From positions 305,697-369,696 of the forward strand of contig NW_017567008.1 in assembly GCF_001661265.1 (NCBI RefSeq): 64,000 nt of DNA. The letters run 5' to 3'. A program made the position numbers and the translations under genes. This DNA comes from Saitoella complicata NRRL Y-17804. Lineage: Eukaryota; Ascomycota; Saitoellomycetes; Saitoellales; Saitoellaceae. Of the stretch, positions 2,497 to 60,819 are shown in pieces; positions within the stretch are counted from its first letter, which is position 1, and each line of letters begins with the position of its first letter. Below the pieces are notes generated by a model. It did no database searches and was not told the origin of the DNA. It saw only the letters and a program-made list of their open reading frames with translations.

Positions 2497-5085
2497 TTAC
2501 ATACGTCCTGCCTGGGCAATTGCTTTGCTCGTCAACTCGACGAACCTGCCCGGCGCATCCTCATCTTGTCTCGCCGTCTCAATCATCGTCAAAATTCTCT
2601 TGATGCCAACACCAACGTGATTCGAGCCCGTAAGACCCTCCAACTCCTGCGTGATACCACGGACCTCAGCCTCAGAGAAGGCATCCGTCGTTTTCAGTAC
2701 ATGGGCAAGCTCCTCCTCCGTGTTCACGGTGGGAACAGGAAGATCAGAGTCGAAACAGGACAGGAGGTCCATCTGCTGAAGGACAGACCTCTCAGTGGTC
2801 GTAGCAAGGATGAGGAGTCGACGTCCCTATATACGCAATTAGCCAGATACTTCACCGTTACGGAATTGAATCTTACCTTCGGCGGCTGCTTCCTTAGCAA
2901 CACCATCAACGCCTGCAGGACAGCGTTTGAGAATCTTGGGCCAATGGGGACCCAATCCAGCAGACGTTCGATGTTATCCACAACTACCACACTCAGCGGG
3001 CTCTTGTACGAGTCGTTGAAGACCTTGTTAATTGCGGCCACCTTTGAAGCTTCGGTGTAACCAATCATACTTTCAGGAGAAATGAGCTTCACGAAAGGAA
3101 ATTCGGAAGCCATGGCGATACTAGCCGCCAACGCTGTCTTTCCGGAGCCAGAAGGACCGTGCATCAACACACTCACAAGTGGCGTGCGCTCTGATTGACG
3201 GACCTGCTGAATGAACAGACGACCCTCCTGAAGGATGTTCTCGATGCCTGAAGAGAAGGAGACAATGCCGTTTTGGATGCAGGTGGCAAGTTCCTCCTCG
3301 GAAACACCGAAAGCCGGCTTGACTTCCTCAAGGGCATGCATGAAATCATCCCTCGTCACCTTCATGTTCTCAATATCCTCAGACACACCCGCCATTGTTC
3401 CCACCTTAACATGGCGGTTGAAAGCAAAGGAAGAGGCACTCTTCACCAAACCACTAATATCAGCACCAGTGAAGTTCTTGGTAAGCGAGGCTAACTCCTC
3501 GATGTCAACGTCAGGTGCCATGATGTGGTTATCACGCATCTTGGCCGTGTGAATTTTCAAAATCTGAACGCGCCCGCTCTCGTCAGGCAATGAGATTTCC
3601 ATATGCACCTCAAGACGACCAGCACGGAGCAACGCCTCGTCAATCATGTCCATTCGGTTGGTCATACCAATGATGAGGATGTTGTTCAACTGATCAACAC
3701 CGTCCATCTTAGCAAGGAGCTGGTTTACCACAGAGTCACCGACACCAGTTCCGTCGTTCTTGCTTCCACGCTGCTTACAGATAGCATCCAATTCATCGAA
3801 GATGATGATGTGAAGACCAGACTCATCGCCCTTCTCCTTCTGCTCCTTCTCAGCATCCGCGAACAGCTTACGGATGTTCTCTTCGGATTGTCCAACAAAC
3901 TTGTTCAAGATCTCAGGTCCGTTCACGATCTTAGGCTCACGCGCGTTGAGCATCTTTCCGATCTGCCGTGCCATCAAAGTCTTACCAGTACCGGGTGGGC
4001 CGTAGAGCAAAAGACCCTTGACGTGCTGGATACCAAGCTTCTCGACCAATCCTGGTGGAAAGATACGCGACGCGAATGCACGACGGAAGATTGCACCGAA
4101 TTCCATGTCGAGACCTCCGATACCCATGTCCTCGAACTTGAAGTCAGGAGCGATAATAGCATTAGCAGCTGGACGCTTCGACGAGGGCTTGAGGCGGACC
4201 GATGAATCGGGAGCCTTGTAGAAATTGATGATCGTCTGAGGCGTGAGAACACCACGAGCGCGCGGGTCGCTATGGACTGCCGCATCTGTAGTAGCCTTTT
4301 CGTTCATGGCGAGATTCACAAGCTGAACAGACTTCACATGACAGCGGAATTGAATGGCTTTGTAGTCAATTACTAGACGCTGGCCGGGAGCAAAGATCTG
4401 CTGTTGGTAGTTCTGTGCAATCCTGTTAGCATACATCCCGTACCCAATCACCCTTACGACATACCCTTGTAAACAATTGTGCCATATCCTCTGGGTCCAG
4501 CATTTGATCAGTACCCTTGTTGGGCCGCATGAAGCTAAGCTCCACATCAAGAGTACCGAGGTATACTGCATCACCACGAGCAAACGGATCGTAAGATGCA
4601 ACAGTGACCTCCTGGTTCAATGACCAAGCCGCCCACTCACGCTGAAGGAAAGAAGCTCCGAGGGTCCCTGGTGCCACAGCAGGAACGGCTCTGAACACAA
4701 GATCATTAGCATGTATGCCATCAGAAGGCAGTTCAGCAACTCACTGTGCAGCCAAAACGTATTGATCGTCAATGATGATATGACCCACGTCCGGTGGGAA
4801 GTCGCTCGGTGATACCGCGATGACGTTCATGATAGCCATCTCATCTGAAGGGATCTTGTTGACGCGGAGAACTCTACTCGAGAAACCTGAACCCTGCTGG
4901 GATCGCTGTGGAGGAGGAGGAACATCCCTGTACTGCTTGGGCGGAGGAGGAACACCTCGAGGAGCTTGCTGCTGCTGCGGAGCACCTCGCCGCGGATCGA
5001 ACAGCCCTGCACGCGGATCCACGGGGGTATATGCGTTGTTGCTGGTGGGGGTAGGCGACGCGAAAGCGTTTCTGAAGCGATCCAT
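2497..5085 (-). CDS. SEC18: SEC18/NSF, AAA+ ATPase that disassembles SNARE complexes
   Basis: Sec18/NSF hexamers use ATP to take apart cis-SNARE complexes after membrane fusion, with alpha-SNAP (Sec17) as adaptor. Four exons (5085-4745, 4690-4465, 4412-2877, 2826-2497) give 810 aa with consistent phases. Order: a Pro/Gln-rich leader, the NSF N-domain (about residues 35-230, SLNQEVTVASYDPF), the D1 AAA domain with Walker A GPPGTGKT near residue 327 and Walker B IIIFDELDAI, then D2 with Walker A GPSGSGKT near residue 606 and the conserved tail block ATTTERSVLQQMDLLSCFD. D2 is otherwise the less conserved module, as in the family. The gene is divergent to the hybrid histidine kinase with 221 bp between start codons, so the two must share promoter space. 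Confidence 0.95.
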
Positions 5086-5306
5086 TGGTATTGTTTTGAT
5101 GTGAGGTTACGGAGGTCGGACAGATGGAAAGCATGTAACCCTAACGTGGCGTGGGTGTGTACAGTAGCGACGCGCACTGTGATGACATCCCGGCGCAGCA
5201 CGCCACACCGTCTGCAACGGACATCGAGTGGAGCGTACGTACGTGTGAGGAGGAGCAGCGACCCCCGGCGGGATTATTCAGCGTGGCCAGGCCAGCAGCA
5301 GCACCG
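5086..5306. promoter_or_regulatory. Shared divergent promoter, SEC18 / hybrid histidine kinase
   Basis: Only 221 bp separate the two ATG codons of oppositely transcribed genes, so both 5' UTRs and core promoters must lie here. No clear TATA box is seen. An open frame without an ATG runs from 5151 into the kinase, which makes the exact 5' boundary of the kinase transcript ambiguous. Confidence 0.5.
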
Positions 5307-8300
5307 ATGCCAGACAAGAAACCACCAGATCTCACCCAGCTCAAGGACGCTGTGAACGCCCACCTCATGAGGGCTCAGACCACGATACGCAAAAAGTCGC
5401 GCCTCTCAGAGACAATGACCGCCGCCGCCGTCTCCCACAACACCACGCCGGACTCCCTGGGCTCCATCTCGTCACTGTCGTCAAACAACTCCACCTCCTA
5501 CCCTTTCCCGTACACAGCTACACCAACACAACAGCCCAAAAGCGAGACGCCAACACCACGAGGTGCTCCTAACGGCTTTCCCGGTCCGACAAACCAACAT
5601 GGTAACCCACTTTTCCCAGCACCAAATATTTACGATCTTACACTACGACTCAACTCGGCCATCGGTATCGAGTTGTTTTGGAAGAGTGTTGTGGATATAC
5701 TGGTGGAAAATTACTGTGCGGAGCGTGTGACGCTGGCCATCCCTAACGATCTGACAGACGTAGAAAACGTACCCTGGGGTCTCAAGGCGACTTACGATGG
5801 AGCAACAGACTTTGCTGCACCAACATCAGGGGGCGGTGCGACGTCGACGTCACCTCCACAAGGTGTACCATCAGAAGCAAATATTATGGATCCCTCGGTG
5901 CCATTTGAGAATGAACCGGATGATGACACTACGCCGACAACAGGAATGCCTGACCAGTCACGACCGCCTCTTCCAAACAGATCGCGTGGACCGTCCGTCA
6001 ATTTACCAACTGGTATGCGTGGAAAAGTACATCGTGCACTGCTTCCTCTGGAAGACGGCGACGAGCCTCTGATCGACAACATTGGTGTCGCACGCGTCAT
6101 CGAGCGTGGACGGCCGGTTGTGCTATCACGAGAGTACAGAGATATTAATACCTTCCTCGAGCGAGGTCAAGGACAGACGACTTCTCCAGCGCATATCGAG
6201 CTCAAGCAGGACCAGTTGAAGCAGAGACAAGAACGCATCGCAAGCAAAGCGGCAGAAAAGGATGCTAACAAAGGTACTCCTCAAAAGCCGCTGCGAAACC
6301 CCATGGAGGAGTATTTCAGCGAAAAGCCGACCTCAGCACGAAAGAATGTCATGGCTTCGCTAAGTAGCCACCTTCACCAGCCGTTCCCTCCGCAGAGAAG
6401 TGCGAGCTATGAAGAGTATGAGCAGGCTATGCTCTCGCCTTGGTCTTCGTCACCTGCGCCATCACCTGCAGTGCACACTGACAGCAATCGCAACCCCTTC
6501 TTCGAAAGCCCCATGGTCGAGGAAGAAGCTTTCTGTCCGTCAGAGTTGAGTCCGGTGTACACTCCCTACGAGCAGGTCTACACCATCGGCATGGAAAGTG
6601 CGCATTCAGTTATTCACGTCCCCCTCATCCACCCAACCTCCGCCAAACCCGTCAGTGGCGCAAGCGGTACCGTCCCGATCGGTATCCTCAGTTTCCTGTC
6701 AAAAGTCATCCCTTACCCTCAGAACCTCGTCGACTCACTCGACAGCTTTGCGCCTTTGATTGCAACGAGTTTGAGTCAGGCTTTGAGCCACTCGAATATC
6801 TTGCACCAGCTTGCTTATGCTCCTCGTCAGCCATCTCAGTCGACGAGTGGTAGTTCGCCGGCGGCATCACGGGCAAGGAGCTATAGTCGAACGGATTCGT
6901 TGGATAGCTCGCCTGCATTGGCCAGCAGCCCGTCGTTCTCGAGTTCGAGCTCGGTTGGTGAGCGTGCGTCGTGGGAGGGAATGGCTGGTATTGCAGCGGG
7001 CATGCTCAGTCCCAATGTCGCCATGTTGGGAACGCCGCTGAGTGCCGGTGAGGTCTCTGGTGACTCGTACTTCTCTAGAGTTCGGAGACCAGTCGCTGTA
7101 CGAGCACCTGCTAGTTCGAGTTCAGTCCTATCTTCAGCTGCGTCCAACGCTGGTGATCTGAATGTTCCCGTGGCAAGCGGAAGCAGCAGAGGCAGTGCGA
7201 GCAGCGATGATCTTCCTACTCCGAAGCTCTCTGACAAGAAAATGGAGGATGTCAAAGAGGATGGGAATGGACAGGAAGAGCAGGAAACGTCACCGGGAAG
7301 GAGGGTGGCGAGTGCTACATCGAGGAGGAGAAAGGCAAGGAGACCAGCGTCGTTGTTGCATTCACATGGTGCAAGCACTTCGGCAACTTTGTCGGGCGGC
7401 TTTGGAAGTGGCAGCGTTCCTGCAGAGAGACCGGTTCACAACGGAGGAAGGCGCTCGATGTCTACCGGTTCTTCATCTTCTGGTCGCGGCGAGATGCCCG
7501 TGCCGAGCGCACGTCTGCTCAAGGTCATCGTGGATTCTATCCCCGTGCATGTCTTTACTGCCAGTCCACAAACTGGCAAAATTACCTGGATAAATGCGCG
7601 GTCTCTTGCATACCGTGGACAAACCGCAGGAGAGGTAATGAAAGACTTCTGGGGCGCATTGCACCCCGATGATCGGGATTCGTATGTCAGTGGATGGAAG
7701 GAGGCGATTGCGAAGGGAGTCGGTCATGCTAGGCAGGTACGAATGAGGCGATTCGATGGTGTCTACCGATGGTTCATGACCCGTGCTGTTCCCCTCCGTG
7801 ACTCGCGAGGTGCGGTTGTTCACTGGTTTGGCACGTCTATGGACATCCACGAGCAAAAGCTGGCCGAGCAGGATGCAGCACGACAAGCGGAGACTGCGGC
7901 GAGTGAAGGAAAGTACCGCAGTTTGGCTGAAGCTAGTCCTCAGATCGTATTCGCTGCTACTCCATCTCAGGGTATCACTTATGCGAACACGCAGTGGTTC
8001 AGGTATACCGGAGGTTCTTTCGAGGCTACGGTTCGATTGGGATTCATCTCATTCGTGCATCCAGACGATCGCCTCAAATGTGCCTTGCCGGCTGGAGTGT
8101 GTCCTACGAAAGATGCGCCTTTCTCTAGTGAGTTACGCTTGAGAAAGCACGACGGCGAATACAGGTGGCACCTCATCAAGTGCGTCTGCGTCGAGGGTTC
8201 CTCGGGCAATGGCGAAGACGACTTGTGGTTCGGGACATGTACCGACATCAACGATCACAAGTTGCTTGAACAGAAACTTAAGGAGACCAACGAGGCTGCG

Positions 8301-14593: not shown

Positions 14594-14633
14594 TTATCAG
14601 ATGATCGTTATCATTATCTGAGAATTATCAGAT
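14594..14633. promoter_or_regulatory. Iron-GATA (SreA-type) sites upstream of hapX
   Basis: Two perfect copies of TTATCWGAT (the reverse of ATCWGATAA) lie at 14594-14602 and 14625-14633. Between them is an 8/9 copy at 14614-14622 and another TTATCA at 14608. ATCWGATAA is the established extended site of the fungal iron-sensing GATA repressors (SreA of Aspergillus, SRE of Neurospora). In those fungi the repressor shuts off hapX when iron is plentiful. The sites lie 118-157 bp upstream of the hapX ATG and before an apparent 5' UTR acceptor (CCCTACAG at 14732-14739). The regulatory role is inferred from the motif and known biology. Confidence 0.75.
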
Positions 14634-14750: not shown

Positions 14751-16051
14751 ATGCCTGGACAAATGCCCATCGCTATTGCTCCGGCAGCTAGTACGCCGCC
14801 CGTGGCTCCGCTGGCCATGGCTCCCCGTCCCATCCAGGTTTGATCCTCGCGCAACCCTCACCGGAACACACTGACACTCGAGAACAGGGACGCTCTGAGC
14901 AGCCTATAACCCTCGTCACATCTAAGGAATGGGTCATCCCTCCGAGACCAAAGCCTGGTCGCAAGCCTGCTACAGACACGCCACCGACGAAGCGTAAGGC
15001 GCAGAACCGCGATGCTCAAAGAGCCTTTCGCGAGCGCCGTGCTGCCCGGGTTGTGGAACTAGAGGACATTCTTAAGGAAGTGGAGGACAAGAATGCCGAA
15101 AAGGAAGAAGAATACAAGGATACGATCGACCGGATCACGGCGGAGAATAAACAGCTCAAGGGTCACATTGAGGTTCTGAACGCCGAAATTGCCAACCTGC
15201 GGGCTATCTCGGACAAGGTCAGCCCGCCTACACCACCCGCCGAGTCACAGCTCCCATATTCGGTTCCGATCTATGCTGCCGTTCCCCTCCGGAAGCGTCC
15301 TTCGTCCCCGACTTCGGCTCAGCAGACGAAGCGCAACAAGTATATATCATCCGAACCTCTCGAGATCGACTTTACGACTCGTGCGAAGCCTCAGTCTCGC
15401 GTGCTCCCCCCCGCTCAACCTCCTTTTCCTGCGCCTCTTTTCTCTGCGGCTCCCGACCCAATTCTCATCCCCGACTCTTGCGGATTCTGCTCAAATGGAA
15501 CACCCTGCATCTGTGCTGAGGTAGCTGCTCAGCAGCAGAAGGTTTACGTCAAGCAGGAACAAACCCTTTACTCCCTGCCTCCTCTCCAGGAAGCTGTGCC
15601 GTTCCCTCTATTGAAGTCTGCTTCCGCTCGCAGTGGAGGATGCCCGCCTGGTGGATGTGCTCAGTGCAAGGCCGATCCCATGAGTAGTCTCTTCTGCAAG
15701 ACCTTGGCAAAGAGTACCGGTGCTTCTTCTTGCTGTGGCGGAAACGATGCTGGTGGTGGCTGTTGTAAGGGCAAGCAGGAGGAGCGTGAGCGTGACCCTG
15801 TTCTTGCGTACGCCCCTCCTCCGACGCGGATGCCTATGAGGAGTTCTTCGACCACGTATCTTCCTTGTGCCGACGTTTACCAGACCCTCTCCCGCCACAA
15901 GGGTTTCTCCGAGTCTGATCTTGGTGCCGTTACGTCGCTCTTGGCCATGGGCCGCAAGCCCGGCCAGGGCTTCATGGAATTCGACACTCTTGTTGTGCGC
16001 GAGGCACTCAAAGAGCTCGACCGAACCGCTTCTATGAAAGACTTTTATTAA
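14751..16051 (+). CDS. hapX: HapX, iron-responsive bZIP partner of the CCAAT-binding complex
   Basis: HapX joins the CCAAT-binding complex (HapB/C/E) to repress iron-consuming pathways and activate siderophore uptake in iron starvation, and to switch vacuolar iron storage on in excess. Two exons (14751-14837, 14888-16051) give 416 aa. The N-terminal Hap4-like CBC-binding block TSKEWVIPPRPKPGRKPA (about 40-57) is followed directly by a bZIP basic region KRKAQNRDAQRAFRERR and a coiled coil to about 150. Three cysteine-rich stretches follow: CGFCSNGTPCIC (about 227), CPPGGCAQC...FC (about 280) and CC...GGGCC (about 310). The C-terminal block (PCADVYQTLSRHKGF to RTASMKDFY) is also typical. Cys-rich regions are the iron-sulfur sensing parts in this family. 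The basic region has Asp where Ala is usual (NRDAQRAF). SreA-type sites lie just upstream. Confidence 0.93.
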
Positions 16052-54672: not shown

Positions 54673-54877
54673 TAAGGATAGCTATACGGTTAGAGGGTAG
54701 AGTATTGCTAGGGTTCACTGGATTAAGCTTCGATGCAGGGTTCGAAATGTGACATCACCACTCACCGTGCACGCGCGAGAGACCCGAGCACAAAATGTAA
54801 AAAGTCCGATCCGAACTGTCAAAAATCCCGAAGCTTGCTTGAGGACGTATATGATTAGAACTTGTACTCGACAGACA

Positions 54878-56038
54878 ATGGTACAGACAAAGAGGAGTGC
54901 TACGACTGCAGCTGTGGCCATGGAGGGGGCGAGGAGGAGTACGAGGTCCGCAGCGGCGGGGGCGGGGGCCAAGAAGGTGAAGGTTGAAGATGACGAGGTG
55001 GGAGTTGGGCTGAAGACACCACCGAAGACGCCGAAGCCTAGGGTCAAGAAGGAGAAGGAGAAGGGGGAGGTGGATGATGCAGAAATGGACGCCGCACTCT
55101 CGAAAGCCGCCACCGTCGTTTCATCGAGCACGAAGGGCAAAGAAAAAGCCGGCGTCTTCGATGCGCATACATTAAAGAAACTCGCCGCGCTGGGAACATC
55201 ACCCTTCCCAGACTACCCCTACCCAACACCAGAACAATGCCACCACATCGAGAAAGCGCTCGCGAAATGGCATAGTTACACCCCACGCCGACGAGCGGGG
55301 ACACCGAGCGTACAAGGCGAGAGCGTTGCTGCGAACTGTGGTGCGGTACCGACTGTACTCGACGCACTCGTCCGGACGCTTTTGAGCCAGAACACGAGTA
55401 ACCGGAATTCAAGCGCGGCTGCGAGGGGGCTATATGCCCGCTTCGGACGGAATCAGTGGGATAAGATCGCGGAGGCGGAGGTTAGTGAGGTGAGTGATTC
55501 AATCCGGATGGGTGGGTTGGCGAATATCAAGGGGAAACGGATCAAGGCCGTCCTGGAAGAAGTCAAACGTCGACACGGGACCCACAGTCTCGAACACCTC
55601 CGCTCCCCTGACATCACCAACGAACAAGCCATGCACGAACTGGTCTCCCTCCCCGGTATCGGTCCCAAAACGGCCTCGTGTGTTCTTTTGTTTTGTCTTG
55701 CGCGTGAGTCGTTTGCGGTCGATACACATGTTTTTCGGCTTACGAAGAAGTTGGGGTGGGTTCCATCTAAATCAACGAGGGAACAGGCGTTTGAGCATTT
55801 GGATAAGAGGGTGCCGGAGGAGTGTAAGTTTGGGTTGCATGTTTTGTTGATTCGGCATGGGAGGGAGTGTGGGAATTGTAAGGCGGAGGGGAGGGGAGGT
55901 GGGGGGAAGGGGGGTGAGGGGTGTCCGGTTGTGGATTATTTGAGGGAGGAACGATCAAAGGGTGGTGCGAAGGAGGAAGATGTCGATGAAGAGGTTAAGG
56001 AAGAGGAGGAGATTCATGAGCATGGACTGACGGCGTAG
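54878..56038 (+). CDS. HhH-GPD DNA glycosylase, endonuclease III-like
   Basis: Base-excision-repair glycosylase. Intronless; about 386 aa from the ATG at 54878 (another in-frame ATG at 54851 is possible). A basic Ala/Lys-rich leader is followed by the HhH-GPD core: TLLSQNTSNRNS, the helix-hairpin-helix LPGIGPKTASCVLL containing the lysine nucleophile position of bifunctional enzymes, and the catalytic aspartate in FAVDTHVFRL. The C-terminal iron-sulfur loop is altered: HGRECGNCKAEG...GCPV shows three cysteines in a stretched Gly-rich spacing where endonuclease III has four (CX6CX2CX5C). The tail is very acidic. The start and substrate (oxidised pyrimidines versus other lesions) are not settled. 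Confidence 0.82.
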   Translation: MVQTKRSATTAAVAMEGARRSTRSAAAGAGAKKVKVEDDEVGVGLKTPPKTPKPRVKKEKEKGEVDDAEMDAALSKAATVVSSSTKGKEKAGVFDAHTLKKLAALGTSPFPDYPYPTPEQCHHIEKALAKWHSYTPRRRAGTPSVQGESVAANCGAVPTVLDALVRTLLSQNTSNRNSSAAARGLYARFGRNQWDKIAEAEVSEVSDSIRMGGLANIKGKRIKAVLEEVKRRHGTHSLEHLRSPDITNEQAMHELVSLPGIGPKTASCVLLFCLARESFAVDTHVFRLTKKLGWVPSKSTREQAFEHLDKRVPEECKFGLHVLLIRHGRECGNCKAEGRGGGGKGGEGCPVVDYLREERSKGGAKEEDVDEEVKEEEEIHEHGLTA

Positions 56039-56157: not shown

Positions 56158-57759
56158 TTAGTAATTGTTTCCAGTGGCAGCACCCCAGATGTACGCCGCC
56201 CACGCCCCCACAATCAACAAACACACCAACCCAAAGAATACCCCCGAAATCTTCTTATTACGCTCATATTGCTCACCAGTCGTATTAAACTCCTTCCTCT
56301 CATTAATGATGTGACCGCGGGCAATACGCTGCTTGCGAGTCCACTGGAGAGAACGCATATCGACGGATCGGAAACAGAGAACGACCATGACGAGCACGAC
56401 ACAGCATGCTGCGGCGGAATCGGCCGCGTAGACGATCACGGCACGGTCGTACGAATCGTTATCGGCGTCTTGGAGCGCACCGGTGATCATCGCGATAATA
56501 ATATTCATCGAATTATTAATCGCGATCTTAATCGCGTACGCGGAGCCAAAGACGCCTTGGTAGTGCATCGTTGTCCGAATCCCGTCGATGATGACAGTGG
56601 GCCCGAACGAGTACGCTACACCGTAGATTCCGAACGCGGCGGCGGTTGCTCCGACGGTTTTGCCGAATGCGATAAGGATCATTGCGAGGAAACACCCGAG
56701 GCCGACGACGGCGAAAACGGTGATGCGGTTTCCCAAGATATCGATGAATACGCCCAACAAGGGCACGAGGAAGAATCCGATGTATTGGGTCATGGCCGAG
56801 TACCACCCCGCTTTGATGGAGTCGACGTTGAATCGCTGTTCTGCGAGTTCGGTCGAGTTTTGGGAGAATACGATTGCGGTGGAGGTTTGGAATGCGGTGA
56901 ATAGCATCACCATCCAGAACGTCCACGGCAACTCGAGGACTTTGCGAATCTCGAACTTTTTGTTGGACTCGGTTAGTTTCTCGCCGGTTGCGGGATCATT
57001 TGTGCCGTGGAATTTCTTGTTTGCGTATTTTGTAAAGAACCAGAATACGAGCGTCGCGACATTTGTGAAGATGTTCATGAAGACCGCGGTCCAGTATACC
57101 CATGCGAAATCGCCGGTGTTTTTGGCGATGATATTGGCGGAGGACTTGCCGACGAATGAACCGATCTTGCCGATACCGAGTTCGAAACCGAGGGTTGCGG
57201 CGAAGCCGGCGGAGGGGGGGAACCAGGATGAGAAGATTTTGTATTGCGCGACTTGGGTTGCGATGTCGCCCAAACTCTCGACCACGGTTCCGAAGATCAT
57301 GAACTTGAAGCTACGGCATTGAGCGGCGCCGGCGATGAGGATCGAACCGACGGAGAAGAGGGCGTTACCGTAAAGCATTGCGGATGCTCCTCCGACACGG
57401 TCGGTCCACATACCCGAAAAGAGGATGAGGACCGTGACCATGAAGTCCTGCGAAGAGGTGAGAAGAGCGTATTTAGTGTTGTTGATCTTGAGTTCCTTTT
57501 TGAGGGTAGATTTCATTGCGCCGGTGACGCCTGAGGACCAGTGTCCGCCGAAGCCGATGAGGGAGACGAGGAGGATGGAGATGAGTTTCATGCTGAGGGG
57601 GACTGGAACGGTGGTGCGATCTGAGGCGGTGGATTCCGGGCGGGAGGTTGTGGTAACGTTGATTTCGGCATCCTTTTCTTTCTCACGAGTTGTTGAGGAC
57701 CCGGAGGAGGATGAGTGTGAGGGTCTCGTATGAGTAGGGGTGATCTCCGTGGTTGGCAT
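56158..57759 (-). CDS. MFSD1-like major facilitator transporter, predicted iron-regulated
   Basis: Twelve-span MFS protein, intronless, 533 aa. A Ser/Thr-rich cytosolic N-terminus (about 50 residues) precedes TM1 (SMKLISILLVSLIGFGGHWSS without signal peptide). The loop 2-3 motif reads SGMWTDRVGGASAM, the MFS D-R-x-G type, and the second half keeps GVFIDILGNRITVFA. The phrase STLKKELKINNTKYALLTSSQDF and the NxSMNIIIAMITGALQDADN helix fit the fungal MFSD1-like group, not the siderophore transporters (14 TM) or sugar porters. The substrate is unknown; MFSD1 in animals is a lysosomal dipeptide exporter. The promoter holds five perfect SreA-type sites, so iron control is predicted. Confidence 0.82.
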   Translation of the reverse strand: MPTTEITPTHTRPSHSSSSGSSTTREKEKDAEINVTTTSRPESTASDRTTVPVPLSMKLISILLVSLIGFGGHWSSGVTGAMKSTLKKELKINNTKYALLTSSQDFMVTVLILFSGMWTDRVGGASAMLYGNALFSVGSILIAGAAQCRSFKFMIFGTVVESLGDIATQVAQYKIFSSWFPPSAGFAATLGFELGIGKIGSFVGKSSANIIAKNTGDFAWVYWTAVFMNIFTNVATLVFWFFTKYANKKFHGTNDPATGEKLTESNKKFEIRKVLELPWTFWMVMLFTAFQTSTAIVFSQNSTELAEQRFNVDSIKAGWYSAMTQYIGFFLVPLLGVFIDILGNRITVFAVVGLGCFLAMILIAFGKTVGATAAAFGIYGVAYSFGPTVIIDGIRTTMHYQGVFGSAYAIKIAINNSMNIIIAMITGALQDADNDSYDRAVIVYAADSAAACCVVLVMVVLCFRSVDMRSLQWTRKQRIARGHIINERKEFNTTGEQYERNKKISGVFFGLVCLLIVGAWAAYIWGAATGNNY

Positions 57760-58501
57760 TGTGATTGAAGGAGGAGCCGAGGAGGATGAGGATCAGATAA
57801 GATGGGCGACGCTGGGTTTTATAGTGATAGTGATGAGGGAGAGATCCATTATCAGATTCTTTGATCGGCGCTTGTCGGCGTTCTTCGCGTTGAGGCTAGC
57901 TCTAGCTTTAGCCGAGATTGATCCGGTGGTGTGTGCAGACGTGACGGGGCCCGCTGTTCCGGTAGGGTGAGGTGTCATTAGGCTACCCGCTCTGTCGGGT
58001 GCTGACGGGCGGAAGACGGAGAGGTGAGGAAGGAGTGCTGGGCATTCGCCAATGCGGAGCAATGATCCCACGGCCACCCCAAATGAAAAACTCACACCGG
58101 CTCCTCTCACTCTGAACTTTTATCAGATCATGCACCAAACAGCCGCCTTTCTCTCGCAAAAGTTCAGGGACGCATTATCTGATCTGTCGGCCACATTCCC
58201 GTAGTGTTTGTTTAGCGCCAAGCCCACTCGCTTAAGCGCGCGGAACGGATCTGATAAAAGAGACGAGTTGGGATGCTGAAGCGAGAAACGTGAGAAAGCC
58301 ATGTTCGAAGGTGTGCCAAGAAAAGACATTAGCCGGCGGAGGATGAAGGGAGGTGCGTGTTCGGATACTTTGCTCGCGGGCTTGGCAGGTCAGTTATAGC
58401 TGGCGTGCCCTTAAGCTCACGATGGTCGGTGTTGGGTTCCGTGTCGTGTTCCGGTTGACCGAGGTACGACGTCTAGAAGTGTGGTGGATACGGGAGCTGA
58501 G
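57760..58501. promoter_or_regulatory. Promoter with five SreA-type iron-GATA sites
   Basis: Five perfect ATCWGATAA sites lie upstream of the MFS start: 57792-57800 (ATCAGATAA), 57849-57857, 58120-58128 and 58175-58183 (reverse orientation), and 58249-58257 (ATCTGATAA). In random sequence of this length well under 0.01 such sites are expected. A CCAAT pentamer lies at about 58049-58053, between the sites, which is of interest because HapX works with the CCAAT-binding complex. The nearest gene to the right points the other way with its 3' end, so all sites can only serve the MFS gene. No coding sequence is seen in this stretch. Confidence 0.8.
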
Positions 58502-59068
58502 TCATCTTTTCAAGCTCTGGCAAGACACTGTGCCGGCGGGAGCGATGCGGATTGCGAGAGGGATGTGCAAGTCTCCGGAGTTATCCATGTCCATGGCATT
58601 CGCCGCCTCCTCCATGGTAGCGCCGTTAGCAACGTTTCACACTTTGAATGTTAATGCGGAACCACTGACCTGAGCAATAGCAAACGCCCTCAACCTTGCC
58701 CTCCTCGCCCCCTTCACCGCATACTTCGCCTCCTCCATCCCCCTCTTCTTACTCAAAGCAGCTTCCGTGAAGGCTGCGGACATATACGCACGTCTCTGCT
58801 TGGCCGTAGCAATCTTCAGAACGCGGCGGTCTTGGAGTTCGACCCGTTTGGAGGGGGAATGGCGGGTCATGAAGGTCTCGTTGAACTTGACGGACTATGA
58901 ACGCGATGTTAGCTATTGATCCCAAACATAAGTAGTGGCAACTGTATCACGAACTCGCATCTGCCTGATGAACCGGAGCGGTTAGTCGCCCATGATCATT
59001 TCGCGATCACTGAGGATGTTGACCTGCGCGGACGTCCACTCCTCAATCTCGTCCCAGTCGAGTTTACC
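58502..59068 (-). pseudogene. Degenerate copy of the subtelomeric gene at 59606-60819
   Basis: Two blocks match the intact copy to the right. At 59068-58982 the translation GKLDWDEIEEWTSAQ parallels GNLEWDVIMDWVSAQ, and then hits a stop (TAA) after MGD. At 58896-58677 a second block (FMTRHSP...RRVLKIATAKQRRAYM) parallels FMTTHFP...RRVHKAATTKQRREFM, with an acceptor-like CATAG before it and a GTCAGT donor after it. The first exon found in the intact copy is not detectable upstream, and the frame before the first block is broken. It is therefore taken as a decayed or truncated paralogue, although an alternative splice pattern cannot be excluded. Confidence 0.55.
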
Positions 59069-59605
59069 TTTCGGGCGTCAGGACCGTCATTCTGCGACCA
59101 TGGATTTGTCGAGCAACGAGGACTGCATGATGGATCCGATCGTTGAGATGAAGCGGCAGATAGGCGAAAATGAACAGCACTGGTTCCATGCATGGTGGCT
59201 GCATATCGTGGGAATGCTCAACTTTGTGACGATAACGGCAACTGACAGGCTTTGAAGGTTGGCTGGACGAGAAACACATACAAAAGAGACAGATTCACAT
59301 CACCATTGTCGCTCTGGAGGCACACCATTTATCTTTTTACTACTGACGTGTGATGGAGGTGCCATCGATTTGTGCGCGTGGCCGACCACGAGTTGGTGGC
59401 CGCAAACCTCTACACTCGTCGAGTTCATCAAGCGACGCACGAGTGTCTGCAGTTCACCGGGTAAAGATTTGAGTGAGATCAATGACGGGATCAAGTTCAA
59501 AATTGTTCAACGTTTTCTTTTTCTCTATTTTTAGAGGGTGTCTATGATGCTATCCAATGCTAAGCGGTGCGCCTCGTGAGACCGGCCCGGCCTTCAAGGA
59601 AGCCT
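59069..59605. other. Spacer between the two subtelomeric copies
   Basis: Short open frames on both strands have no recognisable content. I do not see the missing first exon of the left copy here. Confidence 0.4.
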
Positions 59606-60819
59606 TCACGGAATGCCTCTGCGCACAAGGCTGGCGGTGATGACTCCCCCCACAACTGCCGCTGAGATCAATTCCGCACTCCTACGGACGATGTTCCCTT
59701 CAGCAGCCGGTTGAACCCTCTGCGCCGGAGCGTCGGGGTGATATCTGATGCGCCCGGCAGCTGGAGAGTATGCGCCGGGAACAACAATGTCGACCAACTG
59801 TGAGACTTGTTCAGCATCATGCTGCGAAGACACGACTTCCACCACTAGTCGAGGACTCACCTGGGCTTCGGGAGTTGCTTCGCGCATCTCGAGAGACGTA
59901 TGAGCATCCGTGGTCTTGGCCGCCAACTCATCCGCAGCCGTAGCCGTAGCCGCAGCCGCAGTCGCAGCCTGAGCCTGCAACCTCTTCTTCCTCTCTCTCT
60001 TGACAACGTACTTAGAGGGTTTCTTCGTGACCTTCCCCGCTTCTTCGGCAACCCTCTTCGCTAAGACAGTCCCCTTGAATGTCCCCCTCATGAACTCGCG
60101 CCGTTGCTTGGTGGTAGCGGCTTTGTGGACGCGACGATGTTTCATGTGCTCCTGGATGGCTTGCCATTTGATTGGGAAGTGGGTTGTCATGAACCATTCG
60201 TCCCTCATCAGATCCTAGACCAACGATGACGAATTAGCTTTTTTACTGTGTGCTGAACTTGCTATGGTAGAACTTACTCTTTTGCTCTTAGCCAGCGCAG
60301 CCGAATCATAGCCCATCCCACAATCCCTCATCATATTCTCCTGTGCTGAAACCCAATCCATGATAACATCCCACTCCAGATTGCCCTCCTTTATGTCAGT
60401 GAACCATTTGTACCACTGCGAAACAAGGTCGCGAAGATCAGTGACGGGACCAAGGCCATTGGAACCAGAGACGAAAAACTCGCTGAGGGCATATTTGGGC
60501 AAGGCGAGGTTTGGTGGGACGGAGGCGGTGGTGTAGCTAACACCTGTTGTTAGTGAGGATCGAGGAATATTGGGAGTGGTACTCACCGGACCTGTCGGCA
60601 CTGGTCCCAAAGCAACTTCTCCGTCCCGGTTAGTTCCTCCTTGAGAATCGTAGGCTCGGGTTTGTGGCACTCGCTCACTGGCTGAGTTACCTGGACGGTC
60701 TGAGCGTTTTTTTCATCCCCAAAGGTCTTACGATCCTGGAGGTGATCCTCCCTCAAACGCTGGCGCCCACGCTCAAACATTTCCCTCTGTATCTTTCTCG
60801 CAAGGAAAGACTGCATCAT
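59606..60819 (-). CDS. Subtelomeric unknown protein, four exons
   Basis: Four exons (60819-60587, 60536-60278, 60214-59861, 59797-59606) join in frame to 345 aa, which supports a real gene although no family is recognised. The N-terminal part is charged and helical (SFLARKIQREMFERGRQRLRE). The middle has a Trp-rich block (LRDLVSQWYKWFTDIKEGNLEW) and a strongly basic block (RRVHKAATTKQRREFMRG). An Ala/Thr-rich run follows, and the C-terminus has one weakly hydrophobic segment (ELISAAVVGGVITASLV). The last intron (59860-59798) can also be read through without a stop. Its paralogue to the left is degenerate. The location beside the telomere fits a fast-evolving, lineage-specific gene. Confidence 0.6.

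Follow-up and report, generated by a model that had tools for sequence, protein, structure and literature searches.

Five extended GATA sites upstream of a conserved fungal MFS transporter gene suggest direct iron repression by SreA in Saitoella complicata

The MFS gene and the array of sites upstream of it

The window analyzed here, a 64 kb stretch of the Saitoella complicata genome, carries on its minus strand an intronless ORF for a transporter of the major facilitator class (56158..57759; 533 aa plus stop, with the start codon at 57759-57757), referred to below as the MFS gene. Its product has one Pfam match, MFS_1 (E 6.3e-23). A plus-strand ORF at 54701-56038, which we take to resemble endonuclease III, converges on the MFS gene from its downstream side, and on the upstream side the next minus-strand ORFs end at 59606. 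Positions 58700-59080, upstream of the MFS promoter, have weak translated similarity to positions 60000-60400 in the next minus-strand gene, and are perhaps a decayed duplicate.

The MFS gene is preceded by five perfect copies of ATCWGATAA, which span 33-498 bp upstream of its start codon. Counting from the start codon, site 1 (ATCAGATAA) is at 57792..57800 on the plus strand (-41 to -33), site 2 (ATCTGATAA) at 57849..57857 on the minus strand (-98 to -90), site 3 (ATCTGATAA) at 58120..58128 on the minus strand (-369 to -361), site 4 (ATCAGATAA) at 58175..58183 on the minus strand (-424 to -416) and site 5 (ATCTGATAA) at 58249..58257 on the plus strand (-498 to -490). A putative TATA box, TATAAAA (57817..57823, minus strand), starts at -64 from the start codon and is therefore bracketed by sites 1 and 2. 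All five sites were located where the preliminary description of this DNA had placed them, that is, within 466 bp, in both orientations and upstream of the MFS gene. As the next minus-strand ORFs end only at 59606, the array most likely serves the MFS gene alone.

With both strands scanned, the window holds seven copies of ATCWGATAA, the five at 57792-58257 and two more that start at 14594 and 14625, upstream of hapX. The ATC extension is confined to these two promoters, being present in all five WGATAA words of the MFS promoter, in two of the four in the hapX promoter and in none of the 39 elsewhere in the window. Within 1 kb upstream of the MFS gene, five of the six HGATAR motifs have the extended form. 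The base before the motif is a purine at all five sites of the array vs. 121 of the 180 sites genome-wide. Because the sequences flanking the five sites are dissimilar, the array does not consist of copies of a single repeat. The form CSAAT-N12-RWT, which we take to be that of a HapX/CBC site, occurs in the MFS upstream region at -843 only, and there is one CCAAT at -294.

At equal base use about 0.007 copies would be expected in 466 bp, a figure given earlier and arithmetically correct (466 x 2 x 2 / 4^9). One hundred dinucleotide shuffles of the window gave a mean of 0.77 copies and a maximum of three, against seven in the real window, and in 5,000 such shuffles of the 541 bp upstream of the MFS gene the mean was 0.0088 and no shuffle contained more than one copy.

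Distribution of the motif in the genome

The genome of Saitoella complicata (14.12 Mb in 34 contigs, labeled C1, C3 and so on) contains 180 copies of ATCWGATAA (92 and 88 by strand), and a reversed-pattern control occurs 32 times. The dinucleotide expectation derived from the window, 0.77 per 64 kb, predicts about 170 copies in 14.12 Mb. Since the observed total is so close to this value, the motif cannot be called over-abundant in the genome as a whole; most single sites are background, and the signal lies in clustering. When sites separated by gaps of up to 1 kb were grouped, 14 clusters with at least two sites were obtained, six of which have at least three. The array upstream of the MFS gene is the densest cluster of the genome and its sole stretch with five sites in 466 bp.

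One could suppose that the array arose by chance or by neutral accumulation of GATA words, and the closeness of the genome total to its dinucleotide expectation is in keeping with that idea. However, when 180 sites were placed uniformly in 20,000 runs, the maximum in 466 bp was three (reached in 70 runs), and four or five never occurred; the differing flanks of the five sites also speak against accumulation. This null model ignores a possible preference of the sites for intergenic DNA, although a several-fold higher site rate would probably leave the verdict on clustering unchanged. We thus agree with the earlier view that chance is not a fair explanation, and consider its probability negligible.

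Genes beside the other clusters

We examined 13 regions. Twelve of them are the clusters that lie outside the window, and the thirteenth is a looser pair of sites on C23; 24 ORFs chosen from these regions were scanned against Pfam. Among the five other clusters with at least three sites, four adjoin plain iron genes: one lies between a gene for an L-ornithine N5-monooxygenase (sidA type) and an NRPS gene, one between genes for an FTR1 permease and a multicopper oxidase, one upstream of a ferric reductase gene, and one upstream of an MFS gene on C1 whose database twin, a protein of strain NRRL Y-17804 with 100% identity, is named siderochrome-iron transporter (hereafter the C1 SIT). The fifth, with four sites, is upstream of a gene for an ABCB-type full exporter, ABCB1-like, on C5 (C5:41000-50900, around 4577-5332 of that stretch). 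An unnamed plus-strand ORF starts on the other side of the four sites and could share them. Clusters of at least three sites thus mostly mark iron genes in the Saitoella genome. The extended motif does so from sequence alone, and other genes of this organism could be called by it.

Two of the eight two-site clusters have an evident iron gene, one being hapX and the other an acetyltransferase gene with an Acetyltransf_8 domain, a domain that siderophore acyltransferases carry. The remaining six (C1:548464, C4:234310, C14:136190, C25:22480, C27:208170, and C32:115155) are without an evident iron gene, and at the C27 cluster both sites are inside a LepA-type ORF.

The main ORF of hapX is at 14792..16051 on the plus strand and has Pfam matches to Hap4_Hap_bind (E 1.8e-8) and bZIP_1 (E 3.4e-8), and Cys-rich stretches can be read in the protein. 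A short first exon probably starts at the ATG at 14751. Its two sites, ATCTGATAA at 14594..14602 and ATCTGATAA at 14625..14633, both on the minus strand, are 118-157 bp upstream of this probable start, and hapX is 43 kb from the MFS gene. Because hapX belongs to the SreA regulon of Aspergillus fumigatus, as stated in the text of the study of that regulon (PMC2610380), this pair serves as an internal positive control in the window.

Iron genes were also checked for sites in the opposite direction. FTR1 is represented by one gene in the genome, and it has an ATCWGATAA site. For the C1 SIT, whose start codon is confirmed by the database twin, the sites are 131 and 153 bp away from that codon. A genome search with the C1 SIT identified seven loci. 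Each of its three nearest paralogs (35-46% identity), which were found independently of the motif, has a site upstream; counted from the first in-frame Met that is plausible as a predicted start, the distances are about 110 bp (C3:606727), 490 bp (C10:168601) and 620 bp (C1:393530). Three remoter SIT-like loci (20-25% identity; on C15, C16, and C11) have no ATCWGATAA within 1 kb. Sites are near one of the seven genes with a ferric reductase domain. A vacuolar iron importer of the VIT1/CCC1 type, which one would expect in a fungus, gave no match in a family search of the genome, although such a search can miss a gene that is split or divergent.

Probable control by an SreA-type repressor

ATCWGATAA was found de novo in the promoters of SreA-regulated genes of A. 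fumigatus, where it is 5.4-fold over-represented upstream of 49 putative SreA targets, and it also fits the known binding sites of Ustilago and fission yeast (PMC2610380, Schrettl et al., 2008). The literature consulted (PMC2610380, PMC10500206) agrees with the preliminary description in regarding this 9-mer as the extended site of SreA-type repressors. SreA itself is described as having two GATA fingers around a Cys-rich region (PMC10500206), and an ortholog with this arrangement is encoded at C8:68572-69060. No ATCWGATAA is near the sreA gene of Saitoella complicata.

The agreement with A. fumigatus extends from the motif to the genes that carry it. The companions of the MFS gene (sidA, NRPS, hapX, FTR1 with its oxidase, SITs, and ABC transporters) correspond to members of the A. 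fumigatus regulon, in the clusters of which ABC transporters are present (PMC2610380). The difference is that no MFSD1-type MFS gene is named there in the running text of that report, tables and supplements apart. We conclude that the five sites very probably form a functional array for the SreA repressor and that the MFS gene would be under direct control by iron; as judged from promoter sequence, direct iron repression by SreA appears well supported. The MFS gene had been proposed as an unrecognized part of the iron response, and it probably is part of it: among the other promoters with at least three sites, five in number, four belong to plain iron genes.

There are twelve GATA-finger matches in the genome, and the sites might instead be targets of a different GATA factor, such as a nitrogen regulator. 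This we regard as quite improbable, because five of the six HGATAR motifs are extended, the form that marks iron genes here, and the extended form is the SreA form in A. fumigatus (PMC2610380). Under control by SreA, the repressor would bind the five-site array when iron is plentiful, including the two sites that bracket the TATA box, and the MFS gene would be shut. In iron starvation SreA would release the array and the gene would be expressed, together with those for siderophore synthesis, siderophore uptake and reductive iron uptake. Its product, a predicted membrane transporter of a conserved fungal MFS family, would then serve iron acquisition.

Control of the SreA type is well known. What is new, as far as open-licence papers without their supplements are concerned, is that an MFS carrier that is not a SIT tops the site-bearing promoters; a link of this carrier family with iron was not found in that literature, supplements aside. 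Saitoella represents a lineage of Taphrinomycotina.

The MFS protein and its relatives

The MFS protein clusters with Saitoella coloradoensis YB2330_003566 at 99% identity, and it is 52-67% identical to its aligned relatives, which are assigned to numerous Pezizomycotina and a small number of Basidiomycota. Judged by these alignments it is a member of a conserved fungal family. Within the genome the closest other matches have 26% and 23% identity, so that it has no close paralog (whole-genome search, three matches). In an alignment of 74 of the at least 171 relatives listed, the family-specific charged residues D164, E192, K197, D391, R394, and K410 (numbered without the initiator Met) are nearly invariant or invariant.

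Matches of 406 and 444 residues, some labeled "MFS family permease" and about 70-76% identical to a Penicilliopsis member of the family, looked like prokaryotic relatives. A bacterial origin of these short matches was rejected on the basis of their common start points inside the protein and of contig scans: no relative turned up in genome_contigs or viral_contigs when these were scanned from short conserved patterns. The matches are probably exons of fungal genes that were called without introns.

The MFS protein had been described as not of the siderophore type, and the whole-genome searches bear this out. SITs (MirB/Sit1 class) are likewise MFS proteins and have site-bearing promoters in Saitoella; however, the three matches obtained with the MFS gene include no SIT, and the eight matches obtained with the SIT do not include the MFS gene.

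Candidate substrates and direction of transport

Three roles were weighed for the MFS protein. We favor the release of a ligand that chelates iron. Uptake of an iron chelate ranks second and vacuolar export of peptides or amino acids third, with a good part of the probability assigned to none of the three. The last of these roles draws on the similarity to MFSD1, a lysosomal dipeptide uniporter in which 13 residues line the substrate site (PMC11252000; PDB 8r8q). By sequence, MFSD1 is the best solved structure (E 1.1e-8), with 84 of 390 aligned positions identical (21.5%). A further mark of MFSD1 is its complex with the accessory subunit GLMP. An AlphaFold2 model of the MFS protein (pLDDT 82.6) has an MFS core plus one more helix at the C terminus (494-527), which is outside the range aligned to 8r8q and sets the protein apart from MFSD1. 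Foldseek with this model placed 8r8q at the top with FLVCR2 and NorA close behind, and by Z the structure comparison tied SLC19A3, NorA, 8r8q, and VMAT1. Among the hits listed, the modeled fold is that of a generic MFS protein, and the fold search does not discriminate the substrate; fold families outside these lists may match as well. The term "MFSD1-like" used previously fits the best sequence match and the top Foldseek hit; in a functional sense it is not supported, as FLVCR, NorA, VMAT, and SLC19 folds are matched alike and the dipeptide clamp is not kept. For the same reasons the name "Lysosomal dipeptide transporter MFSD1" that UniRef gives to many relatives should not be read as a function.

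Vacuolar export, of iron chelates or amino acids, had been given as an example of what the MFS protein might do; the role weighed here is export of dipeptides or amino acids from the vacuole in iron starvation, in the manner of MFSD1. The text of the A. fumigatus study offers a parallel, in that a putative peptide transporter and a peptidase are among the genes under SreA repression there (PMC2610380). The substrate site does not favor this role, however: only one of the 13 residues is kept in the MFS protein, and at the two positions of the Glu150/Arg181 clamp it has Ile and Lys, respectively. N-terminal dileucine signals direct proteins to the vacuole, and the signal [DE]xxxL[LI] is present in the N-terminal tail of none of the 74 family members. 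With the folds tied and the clamp not kept, export of amino acids or peptides from the vacuole finds no specific support, and we rate this role as unlikely.

Uptake of an iron chelate, or of another nutrient in starvation, for example an organic acid complex, would suit a gene that is regulated like the SITs. A weak NCBIfam match to an L-lactate transporter (36.8 bits vs. a cut-off of 320) and weak sequence matches to monocarboxylate transporter 8 point to small carboxylates. However, these matches are generic and far below the cut-off, and the protein has no kinship with SITs beyond the MFS level. Uptake is accordingly a doubtful option, if somewhat less so than vacuolar export.

The role that we favor, with modest confidence, is that the MFS protein may release a siderophore or other iron-chelating ligand from the cell. 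More specifically, and equally tentatively, it could be a plasma-membrane exporter of desferri-siderophore, or of a breakdown product, and share this task with other, redundant exporters, the site-bearing ABCB protein among them. Consistent with this, the site array is common to the MFS gene, the sidA/NRPS pair and the acetyltransferase gene, and the lack of the N-terminal dileucine signal across the family also fits. The mechanism of siderophore export in fungi was described as not characterized in a 2023 review (PMC10500206), and a 2025 paper states that direct involvement of ABC proteins in siderophore transport is poorly supported (PMC12278577). On the other hand, regulation alone leaves the direction of transport undefined. 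The family would also not be a general exporter, given that no Aspergillus protein is among the best 120 of 527 relatives in a search with the Penicilliopsis relative.

A precedent for redundancy is ImpC (AFUA_3G03670), an SreA-regulated ABC protein of A. fumigatus, the deletion of which lowers extracellular TAFC and FSC and does not impair growth; the authors take this to mean that export may be redundant (PMC5355445). ImpC works like the exporter proposed here, but it is an ABC protein and not an MFS protein. As judged by class, the four-site ABCB gene on C5 is a possible counterpart of it in Saitoella. The full proposal, that a fungal MFS family related to MFSD1 by remote similarity only exports siderophores or their breakdown products under direct SreA control, from the strongest array in the Saitoella genome, is more speculative than export taken by itself. 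For the question of how fungi secrete siderophores, the MFS gene is one concrete candidate for a knock-out.

Two minor observations concern the family and its distant kin. In a tree of 75 rows, made by a quick method and of descriptive use only, four basidiomycete sequences are placed among ascomycete ones with supports below 95, a placement that may reflect transfer between fungi. Another MFS gene, distant in sequence (C18:208701-209236), for which a search of solved structures at E 0.1 gave no match, is 26% identical to the MFS protein over part of its length and has GATCAGATAA just upstream of the match.
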